Shown in pieces: positions 2,616-52,336 of a DNA stretch of 64,000 bases. Both the position numbers and the translations under genes were made by a program. The DNA lies in IMG/VR virus record IMGVR_UViG_3300031837_000008, positions 32,857-96,856 of that record. One strand, 5' to 3'. The notes under the pieces were generated by a model. That model saw nothing but the letters and a program-made list of their open reading frames with translations. It searched no databases and was not told the origin of the DNA. The stretch's first letter is position 1, and the number at the start of each line of letters is the position of its first letter. This DNA comes from a virus.

Positions 2616-2969
2616 ATGACACATGTTAAGGCAGCAGAACGATTGATTGCCACGTCCTTCGTTGGGGCTATGGCTAACTTGAATCCGAAGACGACGGGCA
2701 TACCTCATGTTGTCGTGTGGATTTCAAAGAAGGAACCAACACATGCTTGTCGTGTGAAAGTTTCCAATATACGCGGTAAGTTCTCGGGCGAGGACAATTT
2801 TTCAATCGCGCTTCACGATGAGTCTATCGAAGGCGAAGTGAAGGTTTCGCCGAAAGATGTGAAGGCCGTCATCGAATGGATGAACCTGAACCGTAAGGTC
2901 ATTCTGAAATATTGGAATGACCCCGAGTTTGACGTTGCCGAGTTGCTGGCGAAACTCAAAAAGATTTGA
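2616..2969 (+). CDS. Hypothetical protein with N-terminal AAxRL tag
   Basis: 117 residues. It opens MTHVKAAERLIATSF, one of the 17 copies of the AAxRL signature discussed in the findings, here well outside the virion gene block. The rest is a compact alpha/beta domain ending in WMNLNRKVILKYWNDPEFD, which resembles the C-terminal helix of DUF4160-type small proteins (weak resemblance). Part of this C-terminal coding sequence is repeated at 3457-3525. GGACTTGAA precedes the ATG. Confidence 0.7.
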   Translation: MTHVKAAERLIATSFVGAMANLNPKTTGIPHVVVWISKKEPTHACRVKVSNIRGKFSGEDNFSIALHDESIEGEVKVSPKDVKAVIEWMNLNRKVILKYWNDPEFDVAELLAKLKKI

Positions 2970-2976
2970 TTAGATG

Positions 2977-3004
2977 TTGGCACCATCTTAAATTGTGCTA
3001 TACT
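2977..3004 (+). promoter_or_regulatory. Sigma70-like promoter, cassette copy 3
   Basis: TTGGCA (2977-2982), 16-nt spacer, TATACT (2999-3004), then a leader nearly identical to copy 1 (GGAATCACTGCACTGAAGC ... CCAACGAAAAGGAAGAA) ahead of the gene at 3052. Confidence 0.75.
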
Positions 3005-3051
3005 GGAATCACTGCACTGAAGCAAACAGTCCAACGAAAAGGAAGAATAAA

Positions 3052-3459
3052 ATGGGTACGCGAGCAATCACCAATGTTTTTGAAAACCAACAGCCTCTTG
3101 TTAGCCTGTACGTTCATAGCGATGGCTATCCTTCGGGCCACGGACTGGCACTGGCAGAATTTCTCAGTACCCAGCGTTTAGTTACCGGGTTAGGTCCAGC
3201 TGATACACAACGAAGTTGTAACGGCGCTGGCTGTTTGGCTGCCCAATTGATTGCTTCACTCAAAACATGCCCCGGCCATATTTATGTTCGGGCTTATGAC
3301 GCAGCTGCGACTGAAGAATTCAGATACGATATTCGAGTCGAAACCTGGGTTGGGCTTGAAGCCCCAACTCTGCGCGTTCAAGTTTTTAGTCGGAAGCCCG
3401 AAATGTTGTTCTCGGGTGGTGTCGAGGAATTCCTTAAATGGTGTAAGTCGGAAGCTTGA
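3052..3459 (+). CDS. Conserved phage protein, MGTRA-type
   Basis: 135 residues starting MGTRAITNVFEN, with YVHSDGYPSGHG a little further on. This MGTRA...DGYPSGHG opening is a pattern I recall from small proteins in many large phages and some bacteria, of unknown function. The start at 3052 is chosen by the AAAAGGAAGAA site; the frame extends upstream into the promoter. No membrane segment. It has its own promoter (copy 3), and the cassette of promoter plus gene is flanked by duplicated sequence, suggesting it was inserted as a unit. Confidence 0.8.
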   Translation: MGTRAITNVFENQQPLVSLYVHSDGYPSGHGLALAEFLSTQRLVTGLGPADTQRSCNGAGCLAAQLIASLKTCPGHIYVRAYDAAATEEFRYDIRVETWVGLEAPTLRVQVFSRKPEMLFSGGVEEFLKWCKSEA

Positions 3460-3525
3460 ATCTGAACCGTAAGGTCATTCTCAAGTGTTGGAACGACCCT
3501 GAGTTTGACGCTGCCTAGTTTCTAG
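3457..3525 (+). pseudogene. Duplicated fragment of the 2616-2969 gene
   Basis: These 69 nt align without gaps to 2881-2949, the 3' part of the 2616-2969 gene, with about five in six bases identical. The encoded residues NLNRKVILKCWNDPEFD match NLNRKVILKYWNDPEFD. There is no start and a TAG interrupts shortly after, so this is a non-coding remnant. The duplication brackets the promoter-plus-gene unit 2977-3459. Confidence 0.8.
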
Positions 3526-3533
3526 GGATTACC

Positions 3534-4122: not shown

Positions 4123-4134
4123 TTAAGAGACTGA

Positions 4135-18722: not shown

Positions 18723-18757
18723 TCAGCGATTTTACTAAGTTGATTGGAGTCTCAACA

Positions 18758-19226: not shown

Positions 19227-20675
19227 ATGAAGGTTCAAATACACGCTGCACAACGACTGCTGGAGGATCAACACGAAAAACTAGCAACTCACAGAGGACA
19301 TATCCTGGTCCTAGGCTTCGGTGGTGTTGGTCAATCGATTCTCCCCGTAATTCTACGTCACCTCGATGTAAGTCCTAGCGCGGTAGTCGTTCTGGATAAA
19401 GAGGTACGCCCTGAATTTGCTAAATACGAAGATTTGGGTGTAACTTACGTTCATCGTGAAATCGTCAAATCTAATTTGGTGCCAACACTAAATGAATTAT
19501 TGAGTCCCGGTGACTTACTGATTAACGTAAGCTTGAACATAGACGGACTAGAAATCGTTGAGTGGTGCCTACAAAATAATGTGCTCTACATTGACACGTC
19601 TATCGAACGTTGGGCTACTGAACCCGACGAAATCATTCCGGAACTGGGTGAACGCACGCTCTACACAACGCATCAAGAAATGCGAAGAATGGCCTCGGCC
19701 TATCCTGGGGCCTCTACCTGTGTGGTGACGCATGGAGCTAATCCAGGTCTAGTTTCGCATTTTGTTAAAGCGGCGTTGCTCAAACTCGCAAAAGATACAG
19801 GTCTGAAAACAGGGACCCCTGAGTCCCAAGAGCAATGGGGAATGCTAGCTGAAGCCCTGAATGTGAAAATAATTCAAACGGCTGAGCGCGATACACAAAT
19901 TCTGAAAGAACCCAAGCGTGTTAATGAATTCGTCAACACCTGGAGCTGTGAAGGGTTCTGGGCTGAGGGTCGAGCACCAGCAGAAATGGGGTGGGGCACG
20001 CACGAAAAAGAGATTCCTGCTGACGGTAAAGAACTCGCTGGTGGCTCTGTGCTCTATCTAGAGCAACCGGGTGTGGAGACCACGGTTAAGTCGTGGGTAC
20101 CTTTGGGCGGTACATTCAACGGCTATTTGATTCAGCACTCGGAAGCCATCACTATCAGCGAATACTTTAGTACAGAGAATTATCGACCGACCTGTTACTA
20201 TGCGTATCAACCGTGTGATGCTGCAATTGCGTCTGTCCATGAAATGAAGGGACAAGAATTGTGGATGCACAGAAAGACCCGAATTGCTAAAAATAGTATT
20301 CAGAGCGGAATCGATGAACTAGGGGTCTTGCTTCTAGGTCATGAACGGAATGCCCTGTGGTACGGATCGCAACTTTCTATCGAAGAATCACGGGAACTGG
20401 TAGAAGGGCAAAACGCAACAACATTGCAGGTAGTGGGTTCAATGTTAGGTGCTATTGTTTGGATGCTGGACAATCCTAATCAAGGTTATTGCGAACCAGA
20501 GGACCTACCATTTGAATTCGTGTTAAACATCGCTTCGCCCTTCCTTGGGCCTATTGCTGCGGTCTACAGCGATTGGACGCCCCTAGCCCATGCAAATCGT
20601 GAACTGTATGACGACGAGCACGACGACTCAGATGTGTGGGCCTTTTCTAATTTTCGAACTGACAGTGGACTATAA
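19227..20675 (+). CDS. hss: Homospermidine synthase
   Basis: 482 residues, close to the usual bacterial length. Residues 25-36 (ILVLGFGGVGQS) are the Rossmann dinucleotide-binding loop of the saccharopine dehydrogenase/homospermidine synthase fold; further family blocks are DLLINVSLNIDGLEIVEWC, YIDTSIERW, VTHGANPGLVSHFVK, and ELWMHRKTRI. The enzyme makes homospermidine from putrescine and/or spermidine using NAD+. The start at 19227 (AAAAGGATTGAT ahead) makes the N-terminus MKVQIHAAQRLLED, an AAxRL tag placed in front of the catalytic domain. The Nudix gene follows after 1 nt. Confidence 0.9.
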   Translation: MKVQIHAAQRLLEDQHEKLATHRGHILVLGFGGVGQSILPVILRHLDVSPSAVVVLDKEVRPEFAKYEDLGVTYVHREIVKSNLVPTLNELLSPGDLLINVSLNIDGLEIVEWCLQNNVLYIDTSIERWATEPDEIIPELGERTLYTTHQEMRRMASAYPGASTCVVTHGANPGLVSHFVKAALLKLAKDTGLKTGTPESQEQWGMLAEALNVKIIQTAERDTQILKEPKRVNEFVNTWSCEGFWAEGRAPAEMGWGTHEKEIPADGKELAGGSVLYLEQPGVETTVKSWVPLGGTFNGYLIQHSEAITISEYFSTENYRPTCYYAYQPCDAAIASVHEMKGQELWMHRKTRIAKNSIQSGIDELGVLLLGHERNALWYGSQLSIEESRELVEGQNATTLQVVGSMLGAIVWMLDNPNQGYCEPEDLPFEFVLNIASPFLGPIAAVYSDWTPLAHANRELYDDEHDDSDVWAFSNFRTDSGL

Positions 20676-20676: not shown

Positions 20677-21252
20677 ATGATAAAAGCAGCGTCACGACTT
20701 ATTGCTATAGAGGCGTCTAAGGATAAAGAGAATTGGGGACCCGGCATCAGAGGATATCACCAAGCAGTCGGAGCCTTAGTACTGGCCCTAGACACCGGTA
20801 ACTTTAGTTTCCAGCTACGTGGTCCTCATTCTGATACACCGAATTGCTACGGAACGTGGGGTGGCTCCGTTGACGGCGCAGAAGACTTGGTCAATGCCCT
20901 ACGCCGGGAACTCAGAGAAGAGACCGGCTATAACGGTGAGTGGTCTGTAATGCCGCTCAAGGTATCCAGAAATGGAAAAGGCTTTGAGTACCACACTTAT
21001 TTTGTTACTGTCCCCAAGCAGTTCGTAGTCAACCCAGAATCAGAATTCAGGTCAGAATCGACGGCTGCTATTTGGACAGCTTTCAATCAATGGCCTCAGC
21101 CAATGCATCCAGGACTTAAAGCGGTACTGGATGATCCACATGTGCAATTCGTGTTGGAGCAAGCCTTGAAACGTAGAGCACAGAATTTAAGCACGGGTGT
21201 CAAAGTCAATGCAGCATCCAGATTGGTTAACTCCGAACTTTCGATCCGCTAG
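20677..21252 (+). CDS. Nudix hydrolase with tags at both ends
   Basis: 191 residues. A complete Nudix box GX5EX7REUXEEXGU starts at GGSVDGAED and ends REETGY, so hydrolysis of a nucleoside-diphosphate-linked substrate is expected; the particular substrate is not predictable. The N-terminus MIKAASRLIAIEASKD and the C-terminus VKVNAASRLVNSELSIR are both AAxRL tags. It begins 1 nt after homospermidine synthase and ends just at a TAGTAAATA motif. The enzyme uses Mg2+ and probably acts in the cytoplasm or after delivery. Confidence 0.85.
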   Translation: MIKAASRLIAIEASKDKENWGPGIRGYHQAVGALVLALDTGNFSFQLRGPHSDTPNCYGTWGGSVDGAEDLVNALRRELREETGYNGEWSVMPLKVSRNGKGFEYHTYFVTVPKQFVVNPESEFRSESTAAIWTAFNQWPQPMHPGLKAVLDDPHVQFVLEQALKRRAQNLSTGVKVNAASRLVNSELSIR

Positions 21253-23895: not shown

Positions 23896-25179
23896 ATGGC
23901 TACCAATGCAGCCCAGAGATTGAAAGCAAGCACGACTAAAGATAAAACAGGTAACGTTAAAACGTCAAAAAATAAACCAAGAACTCAAGTCAAGGCAGCT
24001 GCTCGTATTTGTGCCTTGGAGCTACCTAAGTTCCGATATATTGACGATGTTGCTCGATTTCTTGACCAGACGGGAAGCACGGTTAAAGAATTAAGTCAGC
24101 TAAGTGGAGTCCAGCAGCAACAACTAGCAAAATTAAATCAGGCACAAATCCACACTCATCCCTGCCTAGTTAAGGCCAGCGGCTTGAGTCTAGACGGCGA
24201 GACTCAAACTGATCCTGATCATGAGTCCTTGAAGACCTTGGTTCCCAAAATTGAACAGCTGAATACGCAATATGTATTGTCAGAAGACTTGTACGAGAAA
24301 TACAGGGCTTTAGAGGCCCTAGAAACGCAGTTGGCTATACAGTTCACGGATAAGCGGGGCGAGCCTTACACGAAGGCCTACGGACTGTTAAAAGCACTGA
24401 AGGACAAGATTGGCTTTCAGTTAAAAAACGTTTTAGAATTCTTGAGCAGCGTGGCCTCACACTACGTACCTAAAGTGTTTCAGAGCTACGTATCGACATT
24501 AGTCCAAGAGCTTCAAGAGCACGTTATATTCGAGCACAAGGAACAGTTTTTGTACGTCAGTGTCAAAGACGGAGCCCTAATCTTTACGGATTACATCTTG
24601 CTAAAGAACGTAAAGAATGATGACCTACAGGTAACGCCCCATCTCTACATCAGCCTTCAATGGACTGTGAACCAAGGAATTCAAATTCAGGTTAATCATG
24701 AATTTGACTTACCCAATCTGTTACTAGTTGATGGCGGTTCCGAGGTTAGTTCATTGAACGAAGCCTTAGTGGTGATAGACAAACTTTTGGAACAAGAGAA
24801 CTTCAGTACTAGCCTAGCTGCTATTCCACTGTCTACCAGAATGAAGAATGATCCTTCCAAGTTCAGTGCTTCTATGTTTAACTACTGTGATTATATAAAG
24901 AAAGTTGACGTTGATGCTAAATGTATATCTTTTAGACTCAAAGCGAATACTACTGTCGAACAGATAGACGAAATTAAGTATCCGCTTTATCTTGAGGTCA
25001 AACGTTTGTTTGCCAATAGTCCGGTCGTAAAACTTAGAGTGAAGATTGGTGCGAAATTCATATCGTTTGAACCTCTAACCTCGGGTATTAAATCGGCGGT
25101 CATTCCTCATGACGCTGAGGTTTTGGGTTCCAAATTTGGATTCACGGGCCTCCAGATAGCTAAACTATTGCAGTTCTAA
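23896..25179 (+). CDS. Tagged protein, possible internal head protein
   Basis: 427 residues from ATG 23896 (AAGGATGATC ahead; an ATG two codons earlier overlaps that site). The N-terminus MATNAAQRLKASTT is an AAxRL tag; a second, QVKAAARICALE, follows about 25 residues later after a Lys-rich spacer. The remainder, with helical and beta segments, matches nothing I recognise. Tandem tags with a basic spacer look like a targeting/processing prosequence. Confidence 0.6.
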   Translation: MATNAAQRLKASTTKDKTGNVKTSKNKPRTQVKAAARICALELPKFRYIDDVARFLDQTGSTVKELSQLSGVQQQQLAKLNQAQIHTHPCLVKASGLSLDGETQTDPDHESLKTLVPKIEQLNTQYVLSEDLYEKYRALEALETQLAIQFTDKRGEPYTKAYGLLKALKDKIGFQLKNVLEFLSSVASHYVPKVFQSYVSTLVQELQEHVIFEHKEQFLYVSVKDGALIFTDYILLKNVKNDDLQVTPHLYISLQWTVNQGIQIQVNHEFDLPNLLLVDGGSEVSSLNEALVVIDKLLEQENFSTSLAAIPLSTRMKNDPSKFSASMFNYCDYIKKVDVDAKCISFRLKANTTVEQIDEIKYPLYLEVKRLFANSPVVKLRVKIGAKFISFEPLTSGIKSAVIPHDAEVLGSKFGFTGLQIAKLLQF

Positions 25180-25199: not shown

Positions 25200-25970
25200 A
25201 TGGAAGGCTTAACTAAAGTTTATGCAGCATCAAGACTGCTGGCCCTCCGTACATTTGAAGGCCCTAATTACGATCATGATGCTGTTATCAAAGAATGGCT
25301 AAGGGTTCAGGCGAAAGGTGAATTACGGATAGTCGAAACAGATAGACCTAATATTTGGCTGACCGTAGCTAGCTTTAATTATAGTTTCTATATTTTTATC
25401 CATGACGATTTACTTGATGCTTATCCTCAAGATTCTTTAGTGGGGTTGGTGACTTTTAATAGCATTGGTGCCACACAGTTCAATGGTAAAACCATGGAGT
25501 TGAAAAGTGCCCTGGGCAACAAGCTATACACGCCTCATGCTGAGATTAATCCCGATCATCAGAAGCAGAAAATAGTATCAAGTATCTATTCATGGTTTCT
25601 TGAAGCCGGTAATTGTCTGATGACCGGTGACTCACATTCTAGAGCCGCCAACCTGTTGTGGAGGAACCTAGCTTCAGTGTTCCCTACATATCTTATTGAC
25701 CTGATGGGTCTCGAAATATTGTCACCAAAGACTAGAGAAAGAATAGCTAAGTCACATTTGATACGACTTTTGATGCTGGGAACCTCTTTTAGTTTTGAAG
25801 ACTTAAAGGACCTCGGTTCTTCAGTTAGTGCCAAACTAGTTGACGAACCTGGGTTCGGTACCACGACAGAGGATTTAAATTCAGAGCCTGATTTGTTTGG
25901 GGACCACCCTACACGAACAGGTATGGGCGTCAATAATATAATGCTCCCAAGTACACCCGTTCAAGGATAA
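25200..25970 (+). CDS. Tagged protein, function unknown
   Basis: 256 residues. LTKVYAASRLLALRTFEG at the N-terminus is an AAxRL tag. A helical/beta domain follows, with a low-complexity acidic C-terminus. It ends 3 nt before the next gene. No known domain. Confidence 0.6.
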   Translation: MEGLTKVYAASRLLALRTFEGPNYDHDAVIKEWLRVQAKGELRIVETDRPNIWLTVASFNYSFYIFIHDDLLDAYPQDSLVGLVTFNSIGATQFNGKTMELKSALGNKLYTPHAEINPDHQKQKIVSSIYSWFLEAGNCLMTGDSHSRAANLLWRNLASVFPTYLIDLMGLEILSPKTRERIAKSHLIRLLMLGTSFSFEDLKDLGSSVSAKLVDEPGFGTTTEDLNSEPDLFGDHPTRTGMGVNNIMLPSTPVQG

Positions 25971-25973: not shown

Positions 25974-27506
25974 ATGGCCGTACCTTATGTTTATTTTAAG
26001 ACACCAACAACAGATATAGCCGTTATTGCTGATGTAACCTCAATGTTGATTGGGGCTGAGACAATCACCAGCATCGTTGTAGGTACAGCCAGTCCCGTCA
26101 CTAGCACTCCTTTGTCAGCAACAGTCACGACAGGCACTAGCTCGGTAATTGGATTAACGATTACGGGCGGCAATGACGGACTTAGTTATGGCTTTCAGTT
26201 AACAATTACTACTAATGCTCGTGTATTCATCGTCACTGTCGCCACATCAGTTTCACAAGCAGAATTTATTCCTTACACCACTGAAAATCCAGATGCGTTC
26301 CAAGACTTAGTAGACGAAATAGAAGCCGGTAAAGCAGCCGTCGGAACATCCGTATTTGCGTTTCCCCCGCAAATAGACCCTTCCGGTGGTTTTGTTACCT
26401 GGGAATTTCTAGCCTCAGACGGTACTGTTTATGCCGCAGGTAATGCTTTCGACTACACTGTGCAATCAAATGGGTTGGCCAATACTGTAGTTGCCAAATC
26501 TATTATTACGGTGCCCGTTACAGTCCCACCATCATTAGATGGACAAGCCTATCAATTAAGATATACGCTAAGTCTAAGTCAAGAGTATGGAACACCACCT
26601 GATCCCACAGCAGGGAACCTAGGCCAGAACGTATTTTTTCAATTCGAGAACGTTCGGGTGGTGGGGTTGAACACAGTTCCATTGGGTACCCAACCATCAG
26701 TCGAGCTCCAGGGTGTACCAGCTACTGTTTCAATTGTGTTGGACACGCTATATGATAATGTGACAGTCGAATTATGGGCTGGACCCACTCAAGTAGTGGC
26801 CCCGACCCAGATTCAAGCCTATGAAAGAACTGCTAATGGTTGGTACTTTGCTGGTGTATTAGATACCTCGGGATTAGGCGTATCCCTAGTTCCCTACCAA
26901 ATAATTTGGAAATACTGGGCATCAACTAATACGGGAATCATCAATCAGGAAAATGCTGATTTCTTTGTTGTTAATCCGTCGATCATGAGTGCGGTCAATG
27001 ACGTTAAAGCCAAGATTAATAAGGCACGGACTACGCTTTATGGAACACCTGATATGTTGTTCCCTGCTTCAACTATTTTAACCTGGCTACGCCGTGGTGG
27101 TGACGCATTCAATATCGCTTATGGACAGTTTACTAATTTCACGTTCACAAATGCACTGGGTGGTATTCGTGAATTTTGGTTACTATGCAGTGAAGCTGCC
27201 GCCTTAGCCAGTGCTTATCTTTCGGAGGCTGAGAAATCCTTTAATTTTCAAGGTGCAGCAATTAGTTTAGACGTAGATAGAACTCAATATTTAGAGGCTG
27301 CTGCAACTGCTATTCAAACCCGATTAGATAACGAATTGAAGCTGATCAAAACCAATCTTATTATCAAGGGAAATACTTCAGGTGATGGATCGGTCAACGC
27401 TGGTCAACTTCAACACGGAGCAATCGGTGCCGTAGGAATTACGATTACGCAGGCCTCAATGTGGGGAGCTTATGCTCCAGGATACTTTGGAAATCGTGGA
27501 ATTTAA
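25974..27506 (+). CDS. Probable virion structural protein with Ig-like repeats
   Basis: 510 residues. The first half is Thr/Val/Ser-rich beta structure reminiscent of several Ig-like domains; the second half (from about 340) is helical, with the end GAVGITITQASMWGAYAPGYFGNRGI. Composition and location in the virion operon suggest a surface or neck protein; it could also be a head fibre. No tag is present at its ends. Confidence 0.6.
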   Translation: MAVPYVYFKTPTTDIAVIADVTSMLIGAETITSIVVGTASPVTSTPLSATVTTGTSSVIGLTITGGNDGLSYGFQLTITTNARVFIVTVATSVSQAEFIPYTTENPDAFQDLVDEIEAGKAAVGTSVFAFPPQIDPSGGFVTWEFLASDGTVYAAGNAFDYTVQSNGLANTVVAKSIITVPVTVPPSLDGQAYQLRYTLSLSQEYGTPPDPTAGNLGQNVFFQFENVRVVGLNTVPLGTQPSVELQGVPATVSIVLDTLYDNVTVELWAGPTQVVAPTQIQAYERTANGWYFAGVLDTSGLGVSLVPYQIIWKYWASTNTGIINQENADFFVVNPSIMSAVNDVKAKINKARTTLYGTPDMLFPASTILTWLRRGGDAFNIAYGQFTNFTFTNALGGIREFWLLCSEAAALASAYLSEAEKSFNFQGAAISLDVDRTQYLEAAATAIQTRLDNELKLIKTNLIIKGNTSGDGSVNAGQLQHGAIGAVGITITQASMWGAYAPGYFGNRGI

Positions 27507-29579: not shown

Positions 29580-29960
29580 ATGACCATGATCACAGCAGCC
29601 CTACGCCTATTGGCAGACGCCGATGAGAAAGGCACCAACATAGAGGCAGGTCCCGAGGACGTGGAAAACGTGCTGACCATTCTAAAAAGAATTCTAGGCA
29701 TTCATTTTCTGCTGGATGATAGATCGTCTACCAACCAGTCTTTGATCTGGCGCACTTCCGAGTATCAAGCGGTCTTGAACTTCAGTACGGTTGATGAGGA
29801 CTTAAACTTTTATTTCAAGGCCTCTAAATACAAGTACGAATTAAAGGCCGAAGGCTCGGATGATCAAAGCTTACTGGCTTCAATCGGAAAAGCAGCAACG
29901 GAAGTAAATAAAAAGGTACCTGGACTAGACGAAGTCCTGTCCCAATTGCGTGCCCTATAG
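29580..29960 (+). CDS. Tagged small protein
   Basis: 126 residues starting MTMITAALRLLADADEKG, an AAxRL tag. The rest alternates helices and strands, ending in an amphipathic helix. The GAAAAGGTAATT ribosome site supports this start. Function unknown. Confidence 0.6.
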   Translation: MTMITAALRLLADADEKGTNIEAGPEDVENVLTILKRILGIHFLLDDRSSTNQSLIWRTSEYQAVLNFSTVDEDLNFYFKASKYKYELKAEGSDDQSLLASIGKAATEVNKKVPGLDEVLSQLRAL

Positions 29961-29973: not shown

Positions 29974-30423
29974 ATGGATAATCAAAAACTTGTAAGCCTA
30001 ATTGCTTTGTTTCTTCAGATCAATCCTGAACCGTCTGATGCTCAGTTCCACGCGCTGGCTGAGTCCGTTGGTGTTGATCATGAAAGTTTAGAATCAATTG
30101 CTTATGCCATGTTGGCCGACACCAACGAAATTGAACAAGAAGTAGTGGCTGAAATAGTTCAACCACCCCAGACAGAGAGCGAAGAAGTGCTGGACGGCGA
30201 GTACGATCCGAACACAACTAGCGTTGAAGACTTGGTGTTAAATGACGGGGCACCAGCGGGAACTACTAGCCAGCAAGCATTGCAGGATTCAACATTAAAT
30301 GACGGTGTTGGCATCAACGATGTGGGGACCGGAATTGACGGTGACAAAGATGCAATGATTAGTGACGGCGTTGCACCCATGCAACTCAAAGCCGCTTTAC
30401 GTCTGACTGAAAGTGCGGGTTAA
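29974..30423 (+). CDS. Acidic protein with C-terminal AAxRL tag
   Basis: 149 residues from ATG 29974. It is acidic throughout, with a Glu/Thr/Asp-rich, probably disordered central section. It ends MQLKAALRLTESAG, an AAxRL tag exactly at the C-terminus and thus in reversed placement compared with most carriers. The acidic character would fit a scaffold or internal head protein. The next gene follows after 2 nt. Confidence 0.6.
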   Translation: MDNQKLVSLIALFLQINPEPSDAQFHALAESVGVDHESLESIAYAMLADTNEIEQEVVAEIVQPPQTESEEVLDGEYDPNTTSVEDLVLNDGAPAGTTSQQALQDSTLNDGVGINDVGTGIDGDKDAMISDGVAPMQLKAALRLTESAG

Positions 30424-37314: not shown

Positions 37315-38220
37315 ATGGCTAACCTTCAGGTACCAAAATCATTTCTGAGTGCCCGTGCCAGTGTCAGTGTCAGTGCCCACCAAAAGCTTAGTGTTGCTAA
37401 ATACCAGCATCAAGTTACAGCCGATACTGTGCCTCTAGAACGCACGTTAGAAACCAACTCAGTAGATAACCTTCAGCGATCAATCGAAACGTTTGAAGCT
37501 GAAAAAGAAATGGCGCGAATTAGTGAACTGGATTACGCAACATGGCTACCCTTCTGTGCTCCGGTCTACAAAATTTCGCCCCGTATTGAAGACTACATAT
37601 TGGTCCGGACTATTATATGTCCATCCGATCTTCCTAATCGAAACGGCATTGCATTTCCGCGTTCCGAATTAGTAAGATTTCAACCACCACCAATAAACAG
37701 ATTGTCTTATAAGGCCTGGGTAGGTTGCCCGATCCATGAGGAACATTCCAATGAGGACTGCTCCACGGCACATGGAGTTATCTTTGACGCATCTTTCAAT
37801 AAAGTCCAGGGTTATGGGAATGGAAAACTGTGGAAAGTGATGGGTCTTTTAGGCATTGATAAAAATAAGTATCCGGACATTGCTCAACAGGTTTTAGATG
37901 GAACAATTAATACTTATTCTATGGGTGCTCTAGTCGATAGTTTTACCTGCGGTTATTGCGGAACCGTTTGCTCTAAGGACAGACGTTGCTCACATACTTC
38001 AGGTACGGACAACGTCAATTGGAAACGCTATCAAGATTATGATGGCTCATCGCATTTAGCATTTTTGAATGCTCACGGAATAAGTCCGATAGAGTGTTCC
38101 ATTGTTCGGGATCCAGCTTGGGCGTCAGCCCTTTCAGATTGGGTTGAGTATCCTTGGACGTCAGAAGTAAAAGCAGATTTAGATGTCCCTGGAAGTTCAA
38201 AACCTCAGCAGTTTTTATAG
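37315..38220 (+). CDS. Putative prohead (head maturation) protease
   Basis: 301 residues. Key blocks are GCPIHEEHSNEDCSTAHG with the likely catalytic His, INTYSMGALVDSFTCGYCG with the likely catalytic Ser in YSMG and a C-x-x-C, then CSKDRRCSH that would complete a zinc site, and GISPIECSIVRDPAW near the end. This His...SMG...CxxC...CSH order is what I recall from head proteases of large myoviruses related to T4 gp21. It would cleave scaffold and capsid precursors, and precedes scaffold and capsid genes as usual. A terminator follows. Confidence 0.65.
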   Translation: MANLQVPKSFLSARASVSVSAHQKLSVAKYQHQVTADTVPLERTLETNSVDNLQRSIETFEAEKEMARISELDYATWLPFCAPVYKISPRIEDYILVRTIICPSDLPNRNGIAFPRSELVRFQPPPINRLSYKAWVGCPIHEEHSNEDCSTAHGVIFDASFNKVQGYGNGKLWKVMGLLGIDKNKYPDIAQQVLDGTINTYSMGALVDSFTCGYCGTVCSKDRRCSHTSGTDNVNWKRYQDYDGSSHLAFLNAHGISPIECSIVRDPAWASALSDWVEYPWTSEVKADLDVPGSSKPQQFL

Positions 38221-41097: not shown

Positions 41098-42189
41098 ATG
41101 CGTACAAAAGTTCAGGTTCGGGCGTCGAAGACGCCAATGGTGGCAGCATCCGAGTATCGTTTCGACGGCATGCAAGAAGGTGAGCGTGCAATTGGTCGTA
41201 ACGGTGAAATTAATGCATCGGATAAACGTGACCTTATTAACCGCCAACAAAAGTTCTTGGCTGCATCCTCGAATGGTTCCTTGGCTGCTGATGGTGTATT
41301 TGCTAGCGCAGAGCAACAAGTCAAGCTTAGTCGCGAACTAGTGCAAGCAGCGTTCAACGACAAAGAAGCCCATCGTGTCTTGGGTGAAAAGATTAGCGAT
41401 TCTTTGTATATCACGGCAAATCGTCAGGGTTTTATGCGCAAGTACTTGACGAAGATTACCGTCGAGCAAGGCGCTATCCCACGGTTCCCCTTGCGTACTA
41501 AAAACGTAACGGCTGTGTACTCGACTAGCCCCACCAAGATTCAGTCGCAGATCACTCGCGATAAATGGTTTACACCGCCGGAAATGCAAGTCGTTACTCG
41601 TCCGTTTATTCCGATGAACGAGTTGAACCAATCAGCTGGCGACGTTCTGCAAGAGAAGTATGTTGAAGCAACCGAAGCAATCATGGTGGGTGAAGATCGC
41701 TTGTGGTACAACCAGGTGAATCAGATCGTAGGTATTGATAATCCGCTGTCGATTATCTCAGGTCAGCTTACGCCCTACACGTTCGCTCAAGTAATGACGA
41801 ACGTTACGCGCTGGGGCCTGAAAGCACCGCATGTCCTGATCGCTACCGATATCTATCAGGACATCATCGGTAATTCGGATTTCTTTGCCGCCATTGATCC
41901 GGTTGCACGTCACGAGTTGTTGCTGACCGGTGAACTGGGTGTGATGTATGGTTGCACGATTACTTCGGACGCTTATCGTCATCCGGAACATAAGGTGTTG
42001 AACCAAGGTGAGTTCTTCGTCATTGCCGATGCATTGAATCACGGTGCTTACTCGGATCGTGGTGGCCTGCAATCGCAACCTATCGACATTTCTATTGAGC
42101 GTATTCCGGGTCGCGGATGGGTGATGTATGAAAGTTTGGCCGTGTCTATCGCCAACAGCAGATCCGTCGCGAAAGGTTTACGTGTGTAG
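41098..42189 (+). CDS. Major capsid protein
   Basis: 363 residues. The N-terminal helical part, the central strands (VYSTSPTKIQSQITRDKWFTPPE), and the C-terminal GELGVMYGCTITSDAYRHPEHKVLNQGEFFVIAD and IERIPGRGWVMYESLAVSIANSRSVAKG resemble HK97-fold capsid proteins of large myoviruses; HK97-type 'linker/A-domain' order is plausible but not proved. It is shorter than T4 gp23. The N-terminus (MRTKVQVRASKTPMVAASEYRFDG) could include a cleavable segment ending at AASE. Best supported by its place after protease and scaffold. AACGGAGTATTAAG precedes the ATG. Confidence 0.8.
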   Translation: MRTKVQVRASKTPMVAASEYRFDGMQEGERAIGRNGEINASDKRDLINRQQKFLAASSNGSLAADGVFASAEQQVKLSRELVQAAFNDKEAHRVLGEKISDSLYITANRQGFMRKYLTKITVEQGAIPRFPLRTKNVTAVYSTSPTKIQSQITRDKWFTPPEMQVVTRPFIPMNELNQSAGDVLQEKYVEATEAIMVGEDRLWYNQVNQIVGIDNPLSIISGQLTPYTFAQVMTNVTRWGLKAPHVLIATDIYQDIIGNSDFFAAIDPVARHELLLTGELGVMYGCTITSDAYRHPEHKVLNQGEFFVIADALNHGAYSDRGGLQSQPIDISIERIPGRGWVMYESLAVSIANSRSVAKGLRV

Positions 42190-44628: not shown

Positions 44629-44993
44629 TGAGAGTCGTTAACTTAACTAAAGTAAGTCAGTTTCCGGACACGATTAATTCGTCAGGAATCAAAGGCGGTG
44701 CCCGTATTAGTCCTAAGGGACGTGTTGATCTACCTGCAGGATTTGTTGTTGATCCTAACTGGGAAGCCCTGCATCCGAATACGGTGAAATCGTTCACGCC
44801 AACAACGGTTAGCACTTCTAATAGTAAGCCTCCGGTCAAGACCAATTCTTCAAAGCCCCGGACTATGGCTCAATCAAAGACGGTGACAGCTCCAGTTCCA
44901 GTTCCAATTCCCGCGACTGTTGTAGCAACTACGGCCTCTAGTGCAGCTCAGTCCTCCGCTAGTGCAACGCCCACGAAAACGGAGAACGCATAA
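44628..44993 (+). CDS. Small protein with low-complexity Ser/Pro/Thr tail
   Basis: 121 residues. About 50 residues of ordered sequence (GGARISPKGRVDLPAGFVVDPNWEA) are followed by a Ser/Thr/Pro/Ala-rich tail. Overlaps both neighbours by 1 nt. By position a tail-assembly component. Confidence 0.55.
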   Translation: MRVVNLTKVSQFPDTINSSGIKGGARISPKGRVDLPAGFVVDPNWEALHPNTVKSFTPTTVSTSNSKPPVKTNSSKPRTMAQSKTVTAPVPVPIPATVVATTASSAAQSSASATPTKTENA

Positions 44994-46945
44994 TGACCAT
45001 CTCAGCACAGCAGTCGAGTAAGGTAATAATCCAGGAAATTAATCTCTCTCAAGTTATTACCTCGGCCTCAACATCCGTAGTAGCCCAAGTTATAGTATCC
45101 AACCAAGGATCGACTAGTCCTAAACTATTCACCAATGGTCAGAACTATTTGAGCCAGTATGGTAATCCAAATGCGCAGATCAGTTTCGACGTCTACTGCG
45201 CCTTAGATTATTTCAGTGAAGGTAATCAACTCTGGGGCCTTAGAGTTGTTGGTGAAGGTGCACTTTACTCATCAGTTCTCATGTGGAGCGATGGCGTCTT
45301 AACCTATTTGACGCCAATTGCAGCAGGTATTGTCGATCCTACCCAACCCGATTGGGCAGCTATTCTGCCTGTAGGTTCTACTAACGAAGCACTGGCTCTG
45401 TTCTACCCGAATTTGGGACCCGGAAGCTACGGGGATAACCTAGCAATCTCGATTGTTAGCTCTAATCTTCAGCAACCAGCCGAACCTACCTTAGCCTCAG
45501 CCCTGACAGGCGGCACCCTAGTAGCCGGTACCTACCAGTACCAGGTCTCTAGCTTGGGTCCCGCAGGTGAGACCCTGGCCTCAGCTCCTGCCCAGATCAT
45601 TATTAGTGGTATGGGTGTGACGAATACGGTGACCGTAACCTGGGTGATTGACCCCAATGCCATCGGTTATAACCTGTATGGGCGGGTTACTGGGGGCACC
45701 TACGGGCTTATGGCAACGATTGGGCAGGGTACATCGAGCTTCATCGATACAGGGGCACTGATCCCCAATCCTGCGATTCTGCCTATTACCAGTCCGGCCA
45801 ATGTTGCAGCACCCAGCCCCACTTTCGGCCTAAACGTTTATAGTTTGAGCCAGAGTCTGAATTACCCTGTGGAACAGTTCAACTGCTCTTTAATTGATTA
45901 CACGGATAGCACGGGTATGGAGACCGAATTGGAGCAGCGGATTAACCCGTTCTCTCAGTATATTCAAGTGACATCCAATGTACCGGCGCTTCCTGGCTAT
46001 CCTGTTGACTTGCCGCCTATTGATAGCGTGGCTTCCACTGCAATGGCTGGCGGTGACTCGGGAACAGCTCCTACACCGTATGACGTAGCAGCTGCGTGGT
46101 CGACGTTCCAGAATAAACAATTGTATTCGATCAATATATTGCTGAACTCGGGTAACTCGACGCCCACCGTTCAACTAGCAATGGATACACTGGCTCAATC
46201 TCGTGGTGATTGTGTATCTTTAATTGATATGCCAAGTGCTAGCCAGCAGTTCCAGAATGCCTTGAACTATAGGAATCTGCAGCTTAATCTTAATTCAACG
46301 TACAGCGCGATCTTTAGCCCCGATATGTTGGAAGCAGATACGATTAATGGCAAGCAACAGTATGTGCCGTTCTCTGGTTGGGCTGCAGCCCTGTGTGCAC
46401 GTACAGACCGCGTGGCCAATCCATCTTTCAGTATCGCGGGCTTAAACCGAGGTATCGTCAATGTATTGGGTACCCGTTACACCTATGATGCTGGACAGAT
46501 GGATGACCTGTTTGATGCGCAGATTAATTACACGCAAACATTCATCGGTCAAGGTACGGCTCTGTGGGAACAACAAACATTAGCTGCTCAATTTAGTGCC
46601 CTGTCATGGGTTAGTGTACGGCGAATCGTCAACGTGATGAAGACAGCGTTGTATAACTTCTTGCTATACGCCCTGCAGGAACCTAATGATGATTTTCTAG
46701 GCCGTCAGATCGTAGCCTCGTGTACTGATTACTTGCAATCTATTCAGAATGCTCGGGGTATTTCTAGTTTCACTGTTGTTAGTGACAACTCGAATAATAC
46801 GGCTCAGGATTTTAATTCTGGAATTAGAAATGTGACGGTGATCGTAATTCCGCTGGTGCCAACGCATATTATTAACCTCCAAGTAGTTATTAGTCAACAG
46901 GGTGTATCCTTTACAGAAGCGCTCTCGCAAGTTACTCCTCAATGA
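44993..46945 (+). CDS. Tail sheath protein
   Basis: 650 residues. The C-terminal part (from about 440) has the sheath hallmarks: AALCARTDRVANPSFSIAGLNRGIVNVLG, YTYDAGQMDDLFDAQINYTQTFIGQGTALWEQQTL, and SWVSVRRIVNVMKTALYNFLLYALQEPND, all conserved in contractile tails (T4 gp18 type). Residues about 161-268 are an inserted fibronectin-III/Ig-like domain (GTYQYQVSSLGPAGETLAS ... IGYNLYGRVTGGTYG), probably exposed on the sheath surface. It ends at a bidirectional terminator. Confidence 0.95.
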   Translation: MTISAQQSSKVIIQEINLSQVITSASTSVVAQVIVSNQGSTSPKLFTNGQNYLSQYGNPNAQISFDVYCALDYFSEGNQLWGLRVVGEGALYSSVLMWSDGVLTYLTPIAAGIVDPTQPDWAAILPVGSTNEALALFYPNLGPGSYGDNLAISIVSSNLQQPAEPTLASALTGGTLVAGTYQYQVSSLGPAGETLASAPAQIIISGMGVTNTVTVTWVIDPNAIGYNLYGRVTGGTYGLMATIGQGTSSFIDTGALIPNPAILPITSPANVAAPSPTFGLNVYSLSQSLNYPVEQFNCSLIDYTDSTGMETELEQRINPFSQYIQVTSNVPALPGYPVDLPPIDSVASTAMAGGDSGTAPTPYDVAAAWSTFQNKQLYSINILLNSGNSTPTVQLAMDTLAQSRGDCVSLIDMPSASQQFQNALNYRNLQLNLNSTYSAIFSPDMLEADTINGKQQYVPFSGWAAALCARTDRVANPSFSIAGLNRGIVNVLGTRYTYDAGQMDDLFDAQINYTQTFIGQGTALWEQQTLAAQFSALSWVSVRRIVNVMKTALYNFLLYALQEPNDDFLGRQIVASCTDYLQSIQNARGISSFTVVSDNSNNTAQDFNSGIRNVTVIVIPLVPTHIINLQVVISQQGVSFTEALSQVTPQ

Positions 46946-47865: not shown

Positions 47866-48639
47866 ATGCAAATTAAAACCGAGGTAAGGGCAGCATTCAG
47901 ACTAGTTGCTGAGTCGAATTCAGACGTAATAGCACCAGCTACAGATTTCAAGTCCCAGAACGAAAAGCAGTTAGAGCATCAGCAAGATACCAGGGAAACG
48001 ACTGAGAACAAAGAAAGCACTAGCACTAGCCCTAAATCAGCTATGGATAAAACAGCAGTTAAAGACACGGGCACGGACACTACAGCTAGTTCTACACCAG
48101 TGAGCAAGAATCCGACGACCCAACAAACTGATGCTCAGTACGCCCACGCCCAGGCCTATCTTAAGATTAAGGCTGCATTACGTTTGTTTCGTATTGAATC
48201 CGGTGCTGAGGACGACCCCCTAACAATGGACATGGAGAACGCTGCACTAGAAGAGTCCACGCGTAGACCTAATACTAAGCAGCGTCCAGTAGCTAGGGCC
48301 GAACTTAAACTTAAATCTAAAGTTAAATCTAAAGTTAAACCTAGGATTGCTAATTCGACTGTGGATACAGATGGGATGCCAGGCTTATTTGACGGCTATC
48401 AAATGATTGGCGAAGAAGGTGATAACCAAAGCTATGCTAAGCAAAAGAAAGGTCAAAAACAATTAGAGGCCGGTCCGCCATCGACTTCTAAATCAGATGG
48501 CTTTATGTACGAATCGTTGCCCGGTGTTTTGAACGAGGATCAAGAAGCCAATATGACTAGAGAGCAGGTCTTAGAACACGAGGTCTTAAGTGATGCTGAT
48601 CCTCGACTCTTTAACATGGGTCAACAACCATTGGGCTGA
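47866..48639 (+). CDS. Protein with two AAxRL tags
   Basis: 257 residues. The N-terminus MQIKTEVRAAFRLVAESN is one tag; a second, LKIKAALRLFRIESG, lies at about 99-112, after a disordered polar linker. The remainder is a Lys-rich, then acidic low-complexity chain with repeated LKSKVKSKVKPR. It looks like a mostly disordered internal protein. A prosequence up to the second tag is a reasonable guess. Confidence 0.6.
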   Translation: MQIKTEVRAAFRLVAESNSDVIAPATDFKSQNEKQLEHQQDTRETTENKESTSTSPKSAMDKTAVKDTGTDTTASSTPVSKNPTTQQTDAQYAHAQAYLKIKAALRLFRIESGAEDDPLTMDMENAALEESTRRPNTKQRPVARAELKLKSKVKSKVKPRIANSTVDTDGMPGLFDGYQMIGEEGDNQSYAKQKKGQKQLEAGPPSTSKSDGFMYESLPGVLNEDQEANMTREQVLEHEVLSDADPRLFNMGQQPLG

Positions 48640-49135: not shown

Positions 49136-49151
49136 AACCTAGAGGTGTATT

Positions 49152-49658
49152 ATGGGACGTTCGAGTTTAGCAGATGTACAAGCGGTTGCCGACCCAGCTC
49201 AGTCTTGGAATTTTGATCTTTTTTTACCAGCTATTCCAGGCTCTAGTTCTACACAGGCCTTAACCTGGAAATGTATGACCACTGGCCTTCCTGGCTTTGC
49301 AATGGATAAAGTTGTAGTTCCTTTGCACGGAACAAAACTTAACTATGCGGGCATGAAGACTTACACGGGAAGTTTTAATTCAACTTTCATGGAAGCCTCT
49401 GACTGGAGTACACGTGCTCAGTTTTATGCTTGGTCTGAAAGCGCCCGTTCATGGCTTAATAATAGCGGTACTTTTAAGTCTTCATATGGCGTAAATGGTC
49501 AGATAGTCGTATATAACGATTTACCCCAAGTTAGTAGAACTATTAACGTTTACGGTATGTGGCCGGAGACCGTGAACGAGGTGGAGCTTGACGGTGGAGC
49601 CTCTAATCTGATTACACTACAGATCGGTTGGAGCTTCGATTACGTTCAAGATGTGTAA
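49152..49658 (+). CDS. Tail tube protein
   Basis: 168 residues. The pattern SWNFDLFLP...GSSSTQALTWKCMTTGLPGFAMDKVVVPLHGTKLNYAGMKTYTGSFNSTFMEASDW and the C-terminal VYGMWPETVNEVELDGGASNLITLQIGWSFDYV fit the T4 gp19 tail tube family, a six-strand beta-barrel that polymerises inside the sheath. AGAGGTGTATT provides the ribosome site. It follows the sheath gene at a distance because of the inserted minus-strand gene and three small genes. Confidence 0.92.
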   Translation: MGRSSLADVQAVADPAQSWNFDLFLPAIPGSSSTQALTWKCMTTGLPGFAMDKVVVPLHGTKLNYAGMKTYTGSFNSTFMEASDWSTRAQFYAWSESARSWLNNSGTFKSSYGVNGQIVVYNDLPQVSRTINVYGMWPETVNEVELDGGASNLITLQIGWSFDYVQDV

Positions 49659-49686
49659 AATGTTTTGTTAGACTTATTCCACAACA

Positions 49687-49695
49687 TAGTAAATA
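49687..49695 (+). promoter_or_regulatory. TAGTAAATA motif
   Basis: TAGTAAATA followed by TAGTTTAGTG, 45 nt before the adenine methylase start, in a gap after the tail tube gene. Confidence 0.35.
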
Positions 49696-49739
49696 TAGTT
49701 TAGTGCTCAGTGCTTCGACTTGAATGCAGTAAACCAACT

Positions 49740-50612
49740 ATGTTGTGGACTAATCTAGGAAAGAAAATTACTAATTACACACCTTTAAGATACCCCGGTG
49801 GGAAGTCTCAACTACTCCCGTATTTTCAAAAACTAATAGCCAACAATAAGTTAAAGAGCGGGCACTACATAGAACCTTTCTGTGGCGGAGCCGGATTAGC
49901 ACTAGGCTTATTGCTGACTGATTCAGTTAGCGCGATTCATCTCAACGACTACGATAGAGCGATTTATGCATTTTGGTATAGCTGTATTCGTAAACCAGAT
50001 GCTTTGTGCTCTCTTATCGAAACAGTGCCTTGCACCATGGACACTTGGTATCTTCAACGTGAGACTTGGTTGAACAGAAATAAAGCCCCTCTTCTAAACC
50101 TAGGTTTTGCTACATTCTTTCTTAATAGGGTGAACAGATCTGGGATCCTAAAGGCTGGTGTTATCGGCGGAAAACAACAGGCTGGAACATATAAATTAGA
50201 TGCTCGTTACAACAAAGATGGACTCATAAAACGAATTCAGACTATTGGGAAACTCAAGTCCCGTATAGGTATCTATAATTTAGATGCCTTGGACTTTATG
50301 TCTGGTATACAGTCACAAGTACCAAAGAATTCATTAGTATATCTAGACCCTCCTTACGTTGAGAAAGGTCCGGGTCTATACACAGATGCGTATAAAGAGG
50401 CTGACCATAGAAGACTCGCTACGTGGGTACAGAAGAAATTAAAGCTTCCTTGGATTATGTCCTATGACAGTCACCCCTTGATAAAAGAATGCTATAAGGC
50501 CAGTGCGGGGGCGGGGCATGAAATTGACCTTGCGTATAGTGCGCATGCAAGCTTAAGAAAAGGTAAAGAATTAATGTACTTTTCGAAGTCTCTTAGCTAT
50601 CTACAAATTTGA
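49740..50612 (+). CDS. dam: DNA adenine methylase (Dam-like)
   Basis: 290 residues if started at the ATG 49740; a GTG at 49710 is an alternative, and neither has a convincing ribosome site. The domain starts LRYPGGKSQLLPYF (motif X), then EPFCGGAGLALGLL (AdoMet binding), FFLNRVNRSGI, and the catalytic LVYLDPPY (DPPY), the order of class-alpha N6-adenine methylases such as Dam and T4 Dam. It modifies adenine in a short site, perhaps protecting the phage genome. It is the intact counterpart of the interrupted methylase at 56397-57266. Confidence 0.9.
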   Translation: MLWTNLGKKITNYTPLRYPGGKSQLLPYFQKLIANNKLKSGHYIEPFCGGAGLALGLLLTDSVSAIHLNDYDRAIYAFWYSCIRKPDALCSLIETVPCTMDTWYLQRETWLNRNKAPLLNLGFATFFLNRVNRSGILKAGVIGGKQQAGTYKLDARYNKDGLIKRIQTIGKLKSRIGIYNLDALDFMSGIQSQVPKNSLVYLDPPYVEKGPGLYTDAYKEADHRRLATWVQKKLKLPWIMSYDSHPLIKECYKASAGAGHEIDLAYSAHASLRKGKELMYFSKSLSYLQI

Positions 50613-50657
50613 TTATGCGCCGAATAGTTATGGACCAAATTATGATCAGGAACAACA

Positions 50658-51983
50658 ATGAAACTCAACGCTGCTTTTCGATTATTGAGCACCCAAACTA
50701 TTAGTGCAGCACCTACGGGGCAGGCTCAAATGCAGAGCACTAGACCTCAGCCGTTAGAGACTAAAAAGCCAGTCAAAAAGAATCAGCCTAATAAATTCTA
50801 TAAGGTCAATAACCCTCAACCCGACAAAGAATACAAACTCAATGAAGAATGGTTTGATAAGCTCTCAAAACCAGAACAAGAAGACTACGTTGAGGAACAT
50901 CCGGGTTCCAAGTACGCGGATGACATAAAATCTGAGGACAATAAACCCAAATCTAGACCCACTGATCGTAATCAGCCGGTGACCGTGACCAGGGATCAGA
51001 AGACGTTGCCTAAATCAATAAGCGAAACTCAGAAGCAGAAACCCGCAGCCACACCCGCACCCAAAACCGAACAAGAGAAATTTGAGCAGAATAAGAAAGA
51101 TTTGTTGAAACCTGAACCCAATTCTGCTCCTGAACCTAAAGCTAAAGGGAAACCTGAAGCTAAGGACAAGTCAGGAGTGGATAGTCCTGAACCAAAACCC
51201 CAGTCTAAGGTGCCGGTTAAAGCACCTACTAAAAGCAGTAAACCCAAAATAACACCAGAGGATAAGAAACCAAGTAGTCCACAACGCAAAACCGCAGCTT
51301 CCAAGGTTAAAGCTGAGGCTAAGAAGAAAGGGTTGATTAGAGGCATTATAAGGGACGGTGGAGGCCTACTATCGGGTATTGGTGCAACTCACAGACTATT
51401 GAATGGTAAGACGCAGGAAGGCGATGTAAAGAAGATTGCATCAATGGTCGGTAATATCCTAGGCAGTGCAGCTATGGCTGGTGTACTGGGTGCCTCAGGT
51501 GGTGTTGGACTAGTAGCTTTCATGGCTGTTAAGCACTTGGGTGCACCGGCAATATATAGTCTGGTAAAGAAAGGTGTGGTCGGTGCTGGATCGAGCATTA
51601 AGAAACTAGGAAACGATAAGCCTAGAAAGAAAGGGTGGTCAGATGAAGAAGCTGAAGCAAATAAATATGGATATTGGAAAAACGGCGATTGGGTACCGCT
51701 ATCCAAACACGAATATGATACATTAAGCGACGAAGAAATAGACCGCCGTCAACGTCAAGGTGGACCAGGCACCAAAAATAGTCGACATGGTGTCCATAGT
51801 TCACTAACCTTAAGCATTGCTTCAAGACTGATTACAGCCGAAACTAGCGATAAACTGGACGACGAACTTGTAGGTAAAGTGATTGATGCAATTGCTGACT
51901 ACGTTGAGTCAGGTGATATACCTGACGCTGCGTGGACCAAAGCACAAGAGGAACTTGATCAACAATCAAAGGATAGCAAATGA
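50658..51983 (+). CDS. Long disordered protein with tags at both ends
   Basis: 441 residues. MKLNAAFRLLSTQTIS is an N-terminal AAxRL tag; near residue 387 is a second, LSIASRLITAETSD. Between them lie a Pro/Lys/Gln/Glu-rich disordered region (about 20-215), a Gly/Ala helix pair that could be membrane-associated (about 260-310: MVGNILGSAAMAGVLGAS), and a charged region. The layout suggests an internal or tail component, possibly a tail-length or membrane-penetration factor. The stop overlaps the next start by 4 nt. Confidence 0.6.
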   Translation: MKLNAAFRLLSTQTISAAPTGQAQMQSTRPQPLETKKPVKKNQPNKFYKVNNPQPDKEYKLNEEWFDKLSKPEQEDYVEEHPGSKYADDIKSEDNKPKSRPTDRNQPVTVTRDQKTLPKSISETQKQKPAATPAPKTEQEKFEQNKKDLLKPEPNSAPEPKAKGKPEAKDKSGVDSPEPKPQSKVPVKAPTKSSKPKITPEDKKPSSPQRKTAASKVKAEAKKKGLIRGIIRDGGGLLSGIGATHRLLNGKTQEGDVKKIASMVGNILGSAAMAGVLGASGGVGLVAFMAVKHLGAPAIYSLVKKGVVGAGSSIKKLGNDKPRKKGWSDEEAEANKYGYWKNGDWVPLSKHEYDTLSDEEIDRRQRQGGPGTKNSRHGVHSSLTLSIASRLITAETSDKLDDELVGKVIDAIADYVESGDIPDAAWTKAQEELDQQSKDSK

Positions 51984-52336
51984 ACATCAAAGTTAATGCA
52001 GCACAAAGATTAGTGGCAACAGATATTAGTCGCGATCCAGGTTTTGCACAACTTGAGGCCTCAAATCCAGAAATTGCTGAACTTTTGAAACATGAATTCT
52101 CCAAGCACCATATTATTGATGGAGTTAGTTATGGTGAAGAAGCGGATAATGTCATATCGATCTATTTGAAGGCTAGTAAAAGCAGTATTCCGGGCCTCAG
52201 AGGTACGTCTTGGGACCCTAGCGGAATCTTAGAAATCCATAATTTGATGAAGGACCTGTCAAAAATTAAAAATCTGCAGTTTATCTGTAACACCAATGGC
52301 TACTACAAATTGGTTGGCATTATCAACGCTAAATAG
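51980..52336 (+). CDS. Tagged small protein
   Basis: 118 residues, coupled to the upstream tagged gene by ATGA. MNIKVNAAQRLVATDISRD is an AAxRL tag, followed by an alpha/beta domain ending in a beta hairpin. Function unknown. Confidence 0.65.
   Translation: MNIKVNAAQRLVATDISRDPGFAQLEASNPEIAELLKHEFSKHHIIDGVSYGEEADNVISIYLKASKSSIPGLRGTSWDPSGILEIHNLMKDLSKIKNLQFICNTNGYYKLVGIINAK

Follow-up and report, generated by a model that had tools for sequence, protein, structure and literature searches.

An A-x-x-R-L-x-A peptide tag on unrelated proteins of a jumbo phage, probably a signal for loading cargo into the head

The DNA analysed here, called the window, is a 64,000-nucleotide stretch (positions 32,857 to 96,856) of the 96,856-base IMG/VR record IMGVR_UViG_3300031837_000008, and the subject is a short peptide that recurs on proteins encoded in it. 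A second record of 230,110 bases (G001, locus L015) looks like the same phage, its connector and major head protein (MCP) being 100% identical, and the 289 genes called in it by our own gene caller served as the whole-genome gene set; the other G-numbers denote viral records or genomes compared, and L-numbers loci. The phage is a jumbo phage of 230 kb related to Achromobacter phage Motura and Burkholderia phage BcepSauron (Sauron below), with Burkholderia phage BcepSaruman as a further named relative. It has in common with Motura and Sauron the gene order protease, 'ATPase', virion protein, major head protein, sheath and tube. The peptide, referred to as the tag, has the form M-x-[IVL]-x-A-A-x-R-L-x-A and is found on 13 proteins of the window, at the N-terminus and sometimes at the C-terminus or a domain junction (Table 1).

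The tag was noticed in a first-pass annotation of the window, which reported 17 copies in 13 genes. The motif core is present in all 13, and 16 copies were found, 15 with AAxR[LI] and one ARxRI variant at 27522. A second copy claimed for the gene at 50658 is a weak ATHRLL at residue 243 (score 10.6), and the printed consensus [VIL]xAAxR[LI][LIVK][AE] literally matches 9 of the 16 copies. The copy in the 18758 gene, listed as C-terminal or internal, is internal, at residue 59 of 145 by our own gene call starting at 18740. The sole minus-strand AAxR[LI] match, at 33263 in an 84-codon frame antisense to a 1552-aa gene (31699-36357), was rejected as chance. Across the 230-kb genome there are 16 copies of [VIL]xAAxR[LI], whereas 200 shuffles averaged 0.6 and never exceeded 3; nine of the genomic copies fall in the first 20 residues (0.07 in shuffles). 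The same pattern was counted 6 times in G002 (0.68 in shuffles), 10 in Motura (0.81) and 9 in Sauron (1.21). An unguided search, in which all 4-position patterns in N-terminal 22-mers were counted and compared with shuffles, ranked AxxRLxA and AAxRL first in the own genome with 10 proteins each (shuffle tops 3-4). It placed the motif first in the MCP flanks of ten nearer relatives (27 of 122 non-homologous proteins; shuffle tops 3-6) and found an IxAxxRL form on 14 Motura proteins (shuffle tops 4-6).

Table 1. Tagged genes of the window, followed by virion genes given for context
Feature	Position in the window	Strand	Match or remark
Tag core AAERL (residue 6) of a 117-aa protein, 2616-2969	2631..2645	+	weak DUF4160 match below cut-off
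Tag AALRL inside the protein of gene 18740-19195 (or shorter), where a small domain meets a further segment	18932..18946	+	
Homospermidine synthase, 482 aa, N-terminal tag MKVQIHAAQRLLED, core 19245-19259	19227..20675	+	Pfam PF16653/PF03435
Nudix hydrolase, 191 aa, tag at each end, cores 20686-20700 and 21211-21225	20677..21252	+	PF00293 E 1.4e-8
427-aa protein with two N-terminal tags, cores 23908-23922 and 23995-24009	23896..25179	+	
N-terminal tag core of a 256-aa protein, 25200-25970	25224..25238	+	
Variant tag ARQRI of a 98-aa protein, 27510-27806	27522..27536	+	
N-terminal tag core of a 115-aa protein, 28367-28714	28379..28393	+	Sauron orthologue (51391-51786) tagged too
N-terminal tag core of a 126-aa protein, 29580-29960	29595..29609	+	G002 orthologue with degenerate tag
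C-terminal tag, five residues from the stop, of a 149-aa protein, 29974-30423	30391..30405	+	
N-terminal tag core of a 257-aa protein, 47866-48639	47890..47904	+	second copy 48172-48186
N-terminal tag core of a 441-aa protein, 50658-51983	50670..50684	+	contains the W[FW]xxL..YxxHPxSKYA segment
N-terminal tag core of a 118-aa protein, 51980-52336	51998..52012	+	
Head-tail connector (untagged)	25974..27506	+	phrog_17327 E 1.6e-81
Head maturation protease (untagged)	37315..38220	+	phrog_18299 E 8.4e-83
Major head protein, N-terminus KVQVRASKTPMVAASEYRF weakly tag-like	41098..42189	+	phrog_2522
Tail sheath (untagged)	44993..46945	+	phrog_23
Tail tube (untagged)	49152..49658	+	phrog_45

The profile scan of this genome and its relatives that had been proposed found the tag in many nearer relatives, on 134 proteins (near-duplicates included) whose bodies fall into 64 clusters, which upholds the statement that the carriers are unrelated. 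Pooling 89 distinct N-terminal tags from 28 sources gave the consensus M-K-[IL]-[NQE]-A-A-[AT]-R-L-x-A, in which A0 and R3 are invariant owing to site selection, A1 is kept in 90% and A6 in 79%, and Met stands 4-6 residues ahead of A0 in 77 of the 89. Two tag-like matches at L001:529-604, in a protein with an HPDRGG stretch that is DnaJ-like by its Motura homologue, were taken as false positives.

Selection acts on the peptide. All six Arg, all six Leu and all four Ala codons are used in the 89 pooled tags, and no two of the 15-nt cores of 10 pooled N-terminal tags from the own genome are identical; the codon differences quoted earlier were correct. Observed against expected codon agreement between tags, calculated from genome codon usage, was 0.43/0.36 in G027, 0.36/0.33 in Motura, 0.34/0.26 in the own genome and 0.24/0.31 in G002, slightly over expectation in three of the four genomes tested and under it in one. 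A recent DNA duplication, or a common translation-start element without peptide function, would suit the likeness of tags within a genome and their mostly N-terminal position, but all tag DNAs examined differ and C-terminal and internal copies exist. The near-randomness of synonymous sites means that the tags did not arise by recent copying from one another and that they are not explained by a nucleotide element; with the codon data of four genomes already speaking against it, a DNA-level origin is hardly credible.

For the distribution of the tag, the MCP flanks of 70 MCP-bearing viral contigs, many of them short or near-duplicate, were surveyed, an N-terminal tag being called if a start codon lay within 14 codons. 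Tags were found in 33 of the 70, amounting to 73 N-terminal tags, all on the MCP strand, and the reversed DNA of the same 70 contigs gave none. All 33 tag-bearing contigs are among the 56 with an MCP identity of at least 61%, and no tag was found in the MCP flanks of the 14 loci at 60% or less. Flank scoring by profile can miss tags, since Motura (L105) and G027 (L123; MCP 69%) scored none yet both genomes are tagged, and the per-locus unguided search misses L059, which has four. No tag was found in 50-kb stretches of GR7B, Peetri, PaBG, RHph_I42 and AD1, nor at a profile score of at least 14 in G032 (238,517 bases) or in 160,000 of the 171,756 bases of G037, and the pooled unguided search of ten distant loci gave a top count of 5 against 4 in shuffles, for patterns other than the tag motif. 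Among the relatives examined, the tag is present only in the nearer ones.

Lineages differ in their version of the tag. Over nine variable positions in ten sources with at least three tags each, tag similarity was 4.15 within and 2.93 between genomes (4.11 and 3.44 on leaving out G027), and 0 of 2000 label permutations reached the observed value in either case, a value that is not a clean probability because tags of one lineage share ancestry. Motura tags are mostly IQAxxRLxA, G027 has 11 proteins with M-x-[FL]-K-I-E-A-x-x-R-I-x-A-like starts, and G023 bears A-x-R-[VIL]-L-[AS] on 8 proteins (0.02 in shuffles), the regular expressions for the last two having been composed after viewing the sequences. 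The unguided search recovered the IEAxxRIxA form of G027 (11 against at most 5) and did not recover that of G023 (5 against 3-4 and 4-5 in shuffles). A W[FW]xxLxxxxQxxYxxxHPxSKYA segment, for which we know of no name, follows the tag at a short distance in many carriers and is also contained in the DarA_C protein of L100 described below. The family that contains it occurs in the own phage, G002, Sauron, L075, L076, L117, G027 and G023, each member following its own genome's tag version, and in the distant L113 the segment has no preceding tag. This concerted drift is best explained by one shared receptor or reader of the peptide, which is favoured because synonymous sites are near-random.

The position of the tagged genes was compared in four genomes, with terminal tags counted at a score of at least 14 and with virion-block limits set by the analyst. 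Terminal tags lie inside the block in 10 of 11 cases in the own genome (37-kb block), as had been stated of most carriers, and in 10 of 12 in Motura, 6 of 9 in Sauron and 7 of 8 in G002, or 33 of 40 in total (hypergeometric P 3e-6 to 9e-9). The 36 genes chosen from annotations as structural or packaging (17 in Motura, 19 in Sauron) are all without a tag, and in the own phage the same holds for the MCP, sheath, tube, connector and protease. A regulatory or degradation signal would fit the terminal position at either end, which is typical of degrons, but the 33 of 40 tags in virion blocks speak against it, and no degron is known to take this form, no search for one having been made; this explanation is very unlikely. 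A tag-like motif stands at the N-terminus of 50 of 53 MCPs at 61% identity or more and of 2 of 12 below, counting near-duplicates and excluding 5 of the 70 loci for a missing MCP start. The motif tracks phylogeny, its pattern was chosen after inspection, and the idea that the MCP N-arm is the receptor of the tag, or its model, is a lead only. Directly downstream of the MCP gene lies an HNH-endonuclease-like gene (42336-43376, phrog_559 E 1e-7).

The carriers are small proteins of no known family together with enzymes, namely homospermidine synthase (HSS), Nudix and, in G002, a SprT-like protein. The enzyme names given earlier for the 19227 and 20677 genes hold: besides its Pfam matches, the former matches PDB 2ph5 (E 8e-119) in an alignment that begins at residue 19, and the Sauron orthologue of the Nudix protein has an N-terminal tag too. 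In an AlphaFold2 model of HSS from 20 sequences (mean pLDDT 88), residues 3-13 form a low-confidence helix (pLDDT below 50 for residues 1-12) followed by a well-modelled enzyme, so the tag looks in the model like an appended peptide, as expected. HSS is tagged in two phages; the Motura HSS is untagged and situated in another gene region. Three of 51 viral HSS contigs (L206-L256) bear the tag, two being copies of the own phage and the third L208, whose record G010 (MCP 83%) has two further weaker tags, and the tag was absent from all 80 cellular HSSs scanned (the best 80 of 581; L190 without its N-terminus). Two phages, phiRSL1 and Motura, are named in one account as HSS-bearing (PMC9992855).

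Other carriers gave few names. A tagged DUF3175 family is over the cut-off in Motura and G002 and just below it in Sauron, and a tagged 78-aa Motura protein (L006:13824-14057) is RMF-like (ribosome modulation factor; E 1.7e-5, below the Pfam cut-off). Among 20 further carrier representatives scanned, the sole match over the Pfam cut-off was DarA_C (PF18789 E 5.8e-14), in a tagged L100 protein. In phage P1, DarA undergoes cleavage and becomes part of the head (PMC12810830, PMC5512222). In G037 (L290), a genome in which no tag was found, a DarA_C gene lies directly downstream of the connector gene. A tagged 216-aa G002 protein at 81019 (L044:1019-1666) has a weak below-cut-off match to PF07737 (E 0.00057), and the guess of an ADP-ribosyltransferase for a tagged Motura protein with YHGT (143056) was dropped, no Pfam, PHROG or PDB match being found.

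The tag behaves as a movable unit attached to modules. A 164-aa paralogue of the 2616 protein in the same genome (30% over 89 aa) lacks it; the Sauron homologue of the 18740 protein, 71 aa long, has it close to the C-terminus. The C-terminal tag of the 29974 protein is kept in the G002 and Sauron orthologues and absent from that of Motura, and relatives' members of the 47866 family carry an N-terminal tag. The own DUF3175 protein (G001 158258-159061, L035, outside the window) reads tag-like segment, module, tag, module, and Sauron encodes the modules in two genes, one built as tag-module-tag and one as tag-module. Where a tag is internal, it marks a fusion of modules that Sauron keeps as separate tagged genes. 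A small tagged domain adjoins the tagged Nudix in the own phage and Sauron; in Motura it is fused to Nudix with a degenerate tag between. The Motura gene 108240-109052 (L003:28241-29053), annotated 'A/G-specific adenine glycosylase', aligns with its first 53 residues to the small own and Sauron domain and with its C-terminal half to the tagged Sauron Nudix, so that its product is probably the small domain fused to Nudix.

Removal of the tag at (L/I)xE or AxE sites, proposed in the first-pass annotation, was not borne out as a general feature, although the prohead protease named there at 37315 is indeed encoded (Table 1). After the 89 N-terminal tags there is no overall enrichment of Glu (7.7% just after the tag against 7.6-8.2% further in), and [LI]xE follows in 12 cases against 13 of 89. 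The alternative that the tag is a propeptide, cut just behind at such sites by the 37315 protease, is compatible with loading into the head and draws on several other observations. AxE occurs in the 17 residues past RL in 19 of 89 tags against 9 of 89, Glu reaches 12.4% at the exact RLxAxE place, a mild excess, and RLxAxE or RICALE is present in three own tags (28379, 20686 and 23995). An A[ST]E[YF]-like site near residue 19 is retained in all 53 MCPs at 61% identity or more and in 11 of 12 below, and the Motura orthologue of the 23896 protein starts with MELPKFRY just past the tag region, at the place where a cut after C-A-x-E would fall in the own phage and G002. RLxAxE occurs in none of the Motura tags listed, however, and C-terminal tags are at odds with a simple N-terminal propeptide. 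The propeptide explanation is unlikely overall, and cleavage of some carriers by the prohead protease, for example of 23896, is possible.

Loading into the head is supported indirectly by the location in the virion block, the absence of tags from the 36 structural or packaging genes checked, the DarA_C carrier and the concerted drift. The tag is accordingly read, with a probability of about 0.7, as a cargo-loading docking peptide akin to the capsid targeting sequence (CTS) of T4, of unrelated sequence and usable at either end. It would probably form a short amphipathic helix that docks onto one common receptor during head assembly; docking would enclose otherwise unrelated phage proteins in the prohead, and the enclosed cargo would later be injected with the DNA. 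For this purpose the tag may be placed at either terminus of a protein or between modules that have been fused. We infer the single receptor from the concerted drift, and infer also head location, injection and binding as a helix. Of the original proposal, a tag that loads proteins into the head and is partly removed on maturation, the loading is upheld indirectly, by an address peptide on non-structural virion-block proteins, and the general removal is not. Docking to another hub, such as the tail, the baseplate, or a replication or membrane compartment, is improbable: tagged genes do adjoin tail genes too (sheath, tube), the sequence leaves the receptor unfixed, and concerted drift suits any common partner, but the sole carrier with a relative studied in virions (DarA_C) points to head cargo and no tail gene among the 36 checked is tagged.

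Several points weigh against head loading. The receptor is putative, most carriers are without known function, and no virion proteomics or mass spectrometry of a tag-bearing phage was found in the accessible portion of the open-access literature. Seven of 40 terminal tags lie outside the virion blocks, some maybe by chance (Motura 211947, Sauron 72220), and 48 of 51 viral HSS contigs are without the tag. There is no common cleavage signature, and the C-terminal copies are unlike T4. The DarA argument concerns one tagged protein, whose likeness covers the DarA C-terminal domain only and not the part seen bound to the P1 capsid; this domain is unresolved in the P1 head structure (PMC5512222, PMC12810830). 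DarA_C was matched twice in 32 records, once in the tagged protein of L100 and once in G037, a relative in which no tag was found. Unguided top counts are near those of shuffles in Sauron (7 against 5-7) and G002 (8 against 4-6), so that the guided counts carry the weight in these two genomes.

An extended form of head loading, possible though clearly more tentative, would make the tag a portable address code of a jumbo-phage clade. A prohead receptor would read A-x-x-R-L-x-A helices at either end, new genes would become injectable cargo by gaining about ten codons, receptor and tags would drift together, and the tag would perhaps mimic the MCP N-arm [VI]xA[AS][KR]TPxVAASE. Packaged or injected proteins are known for only a few jumbo phages, and the tag, if head loading is true, would reduce the search for cargo to a simple sequence scan. 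Dozens of proteins that belong to no known family would thereby emerge as candidates for early host takeover or anti-defence, the presence of the metabolic enzyme HSS inside a virion gene block would be explained, and a cargo-loading peptide unrelated to that of T4 would be at hand. The diverging tag versions of sister lineages amount to a natural experiment through which the receptor could be sought.

Short terminal helices at either end also load unrelated enzymes into a protein shell in encapsulins and bacterial microcompartments, as cargo and encapsulation peptides, respectively; the shells are different and the likeness to the tag is an analogy only. No description of the tag was found in the accessible open-access text on Motura- or BcepSauron-type phages, jumbo-phage tags, CTS or DarA and DarB. 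In the jumbo myoviruses SPN3US and phiKZ, the prohead protease cuts head proteins and propeptides may target them (PMC10052503, PMC5694885). The propeptides described are mostly long (111-254 residues, two of 20 and 24), are cut at A-x-E and show no widely common short tag, unlike the present case, in which A-x-E follows the tag in just 19 of 89. In P1, the first 30 residues of DarB direct a reporter to the capsid, and the paper describes no consensus common to Dar proteins (PMC9024508). An N-terminal signal thus sends this head protein to the capsid, whereas here one motif is widely common.

T4 provides the precedent. Its internal proteins are described as highly diverse defence proteins with the conserved CTS alone in common (PMC3012670), and the CTS of internal proteins and Alt is a short N-terminal peptide common to a diverse set, as here (PMC3012670, PMC5694885). 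A T4-like CTS as a rule in HSS-bearing phages was considered and rejected: several of the 48 untagged viral HSSs start FxxF(L/I)xE-like, and a shared motif would have given independent evidence, but none of 408 open reading frames in HSS contigs, on both strands and with spurious frames included, carries a recurrent T4-CTS-like N-terminal motif, and the idea was dropped as unsupported. Scans of HSS-bearing records for such starts gave 2 against 3.6 shuffled in G006 and 2 of 379 against 2.0 shuffled in another set, with the exception of G007, which had 8 against 2.3 for F..[FY][LIVM]. In that 160-kb HSS-bearing record, four T4-CTS-like starts were seen in 49120-51702 and 58470-61015 (MLKFNDFLKEN, MLTFKEYLKED, MISFSQYLTEA and MLSFNDFLVES). 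The tag differs from the T4 CTS apparently in its sequence, in its C-terminal copies (21211, 30391, Sauron, G002) and internal copies where the T4 CTS is strictly N-terminal, and in being joined to 64 body clusters with no cleavage site evident in general. As in the T4 system, the prohead protease is encoded in the phage's own genome (37315).

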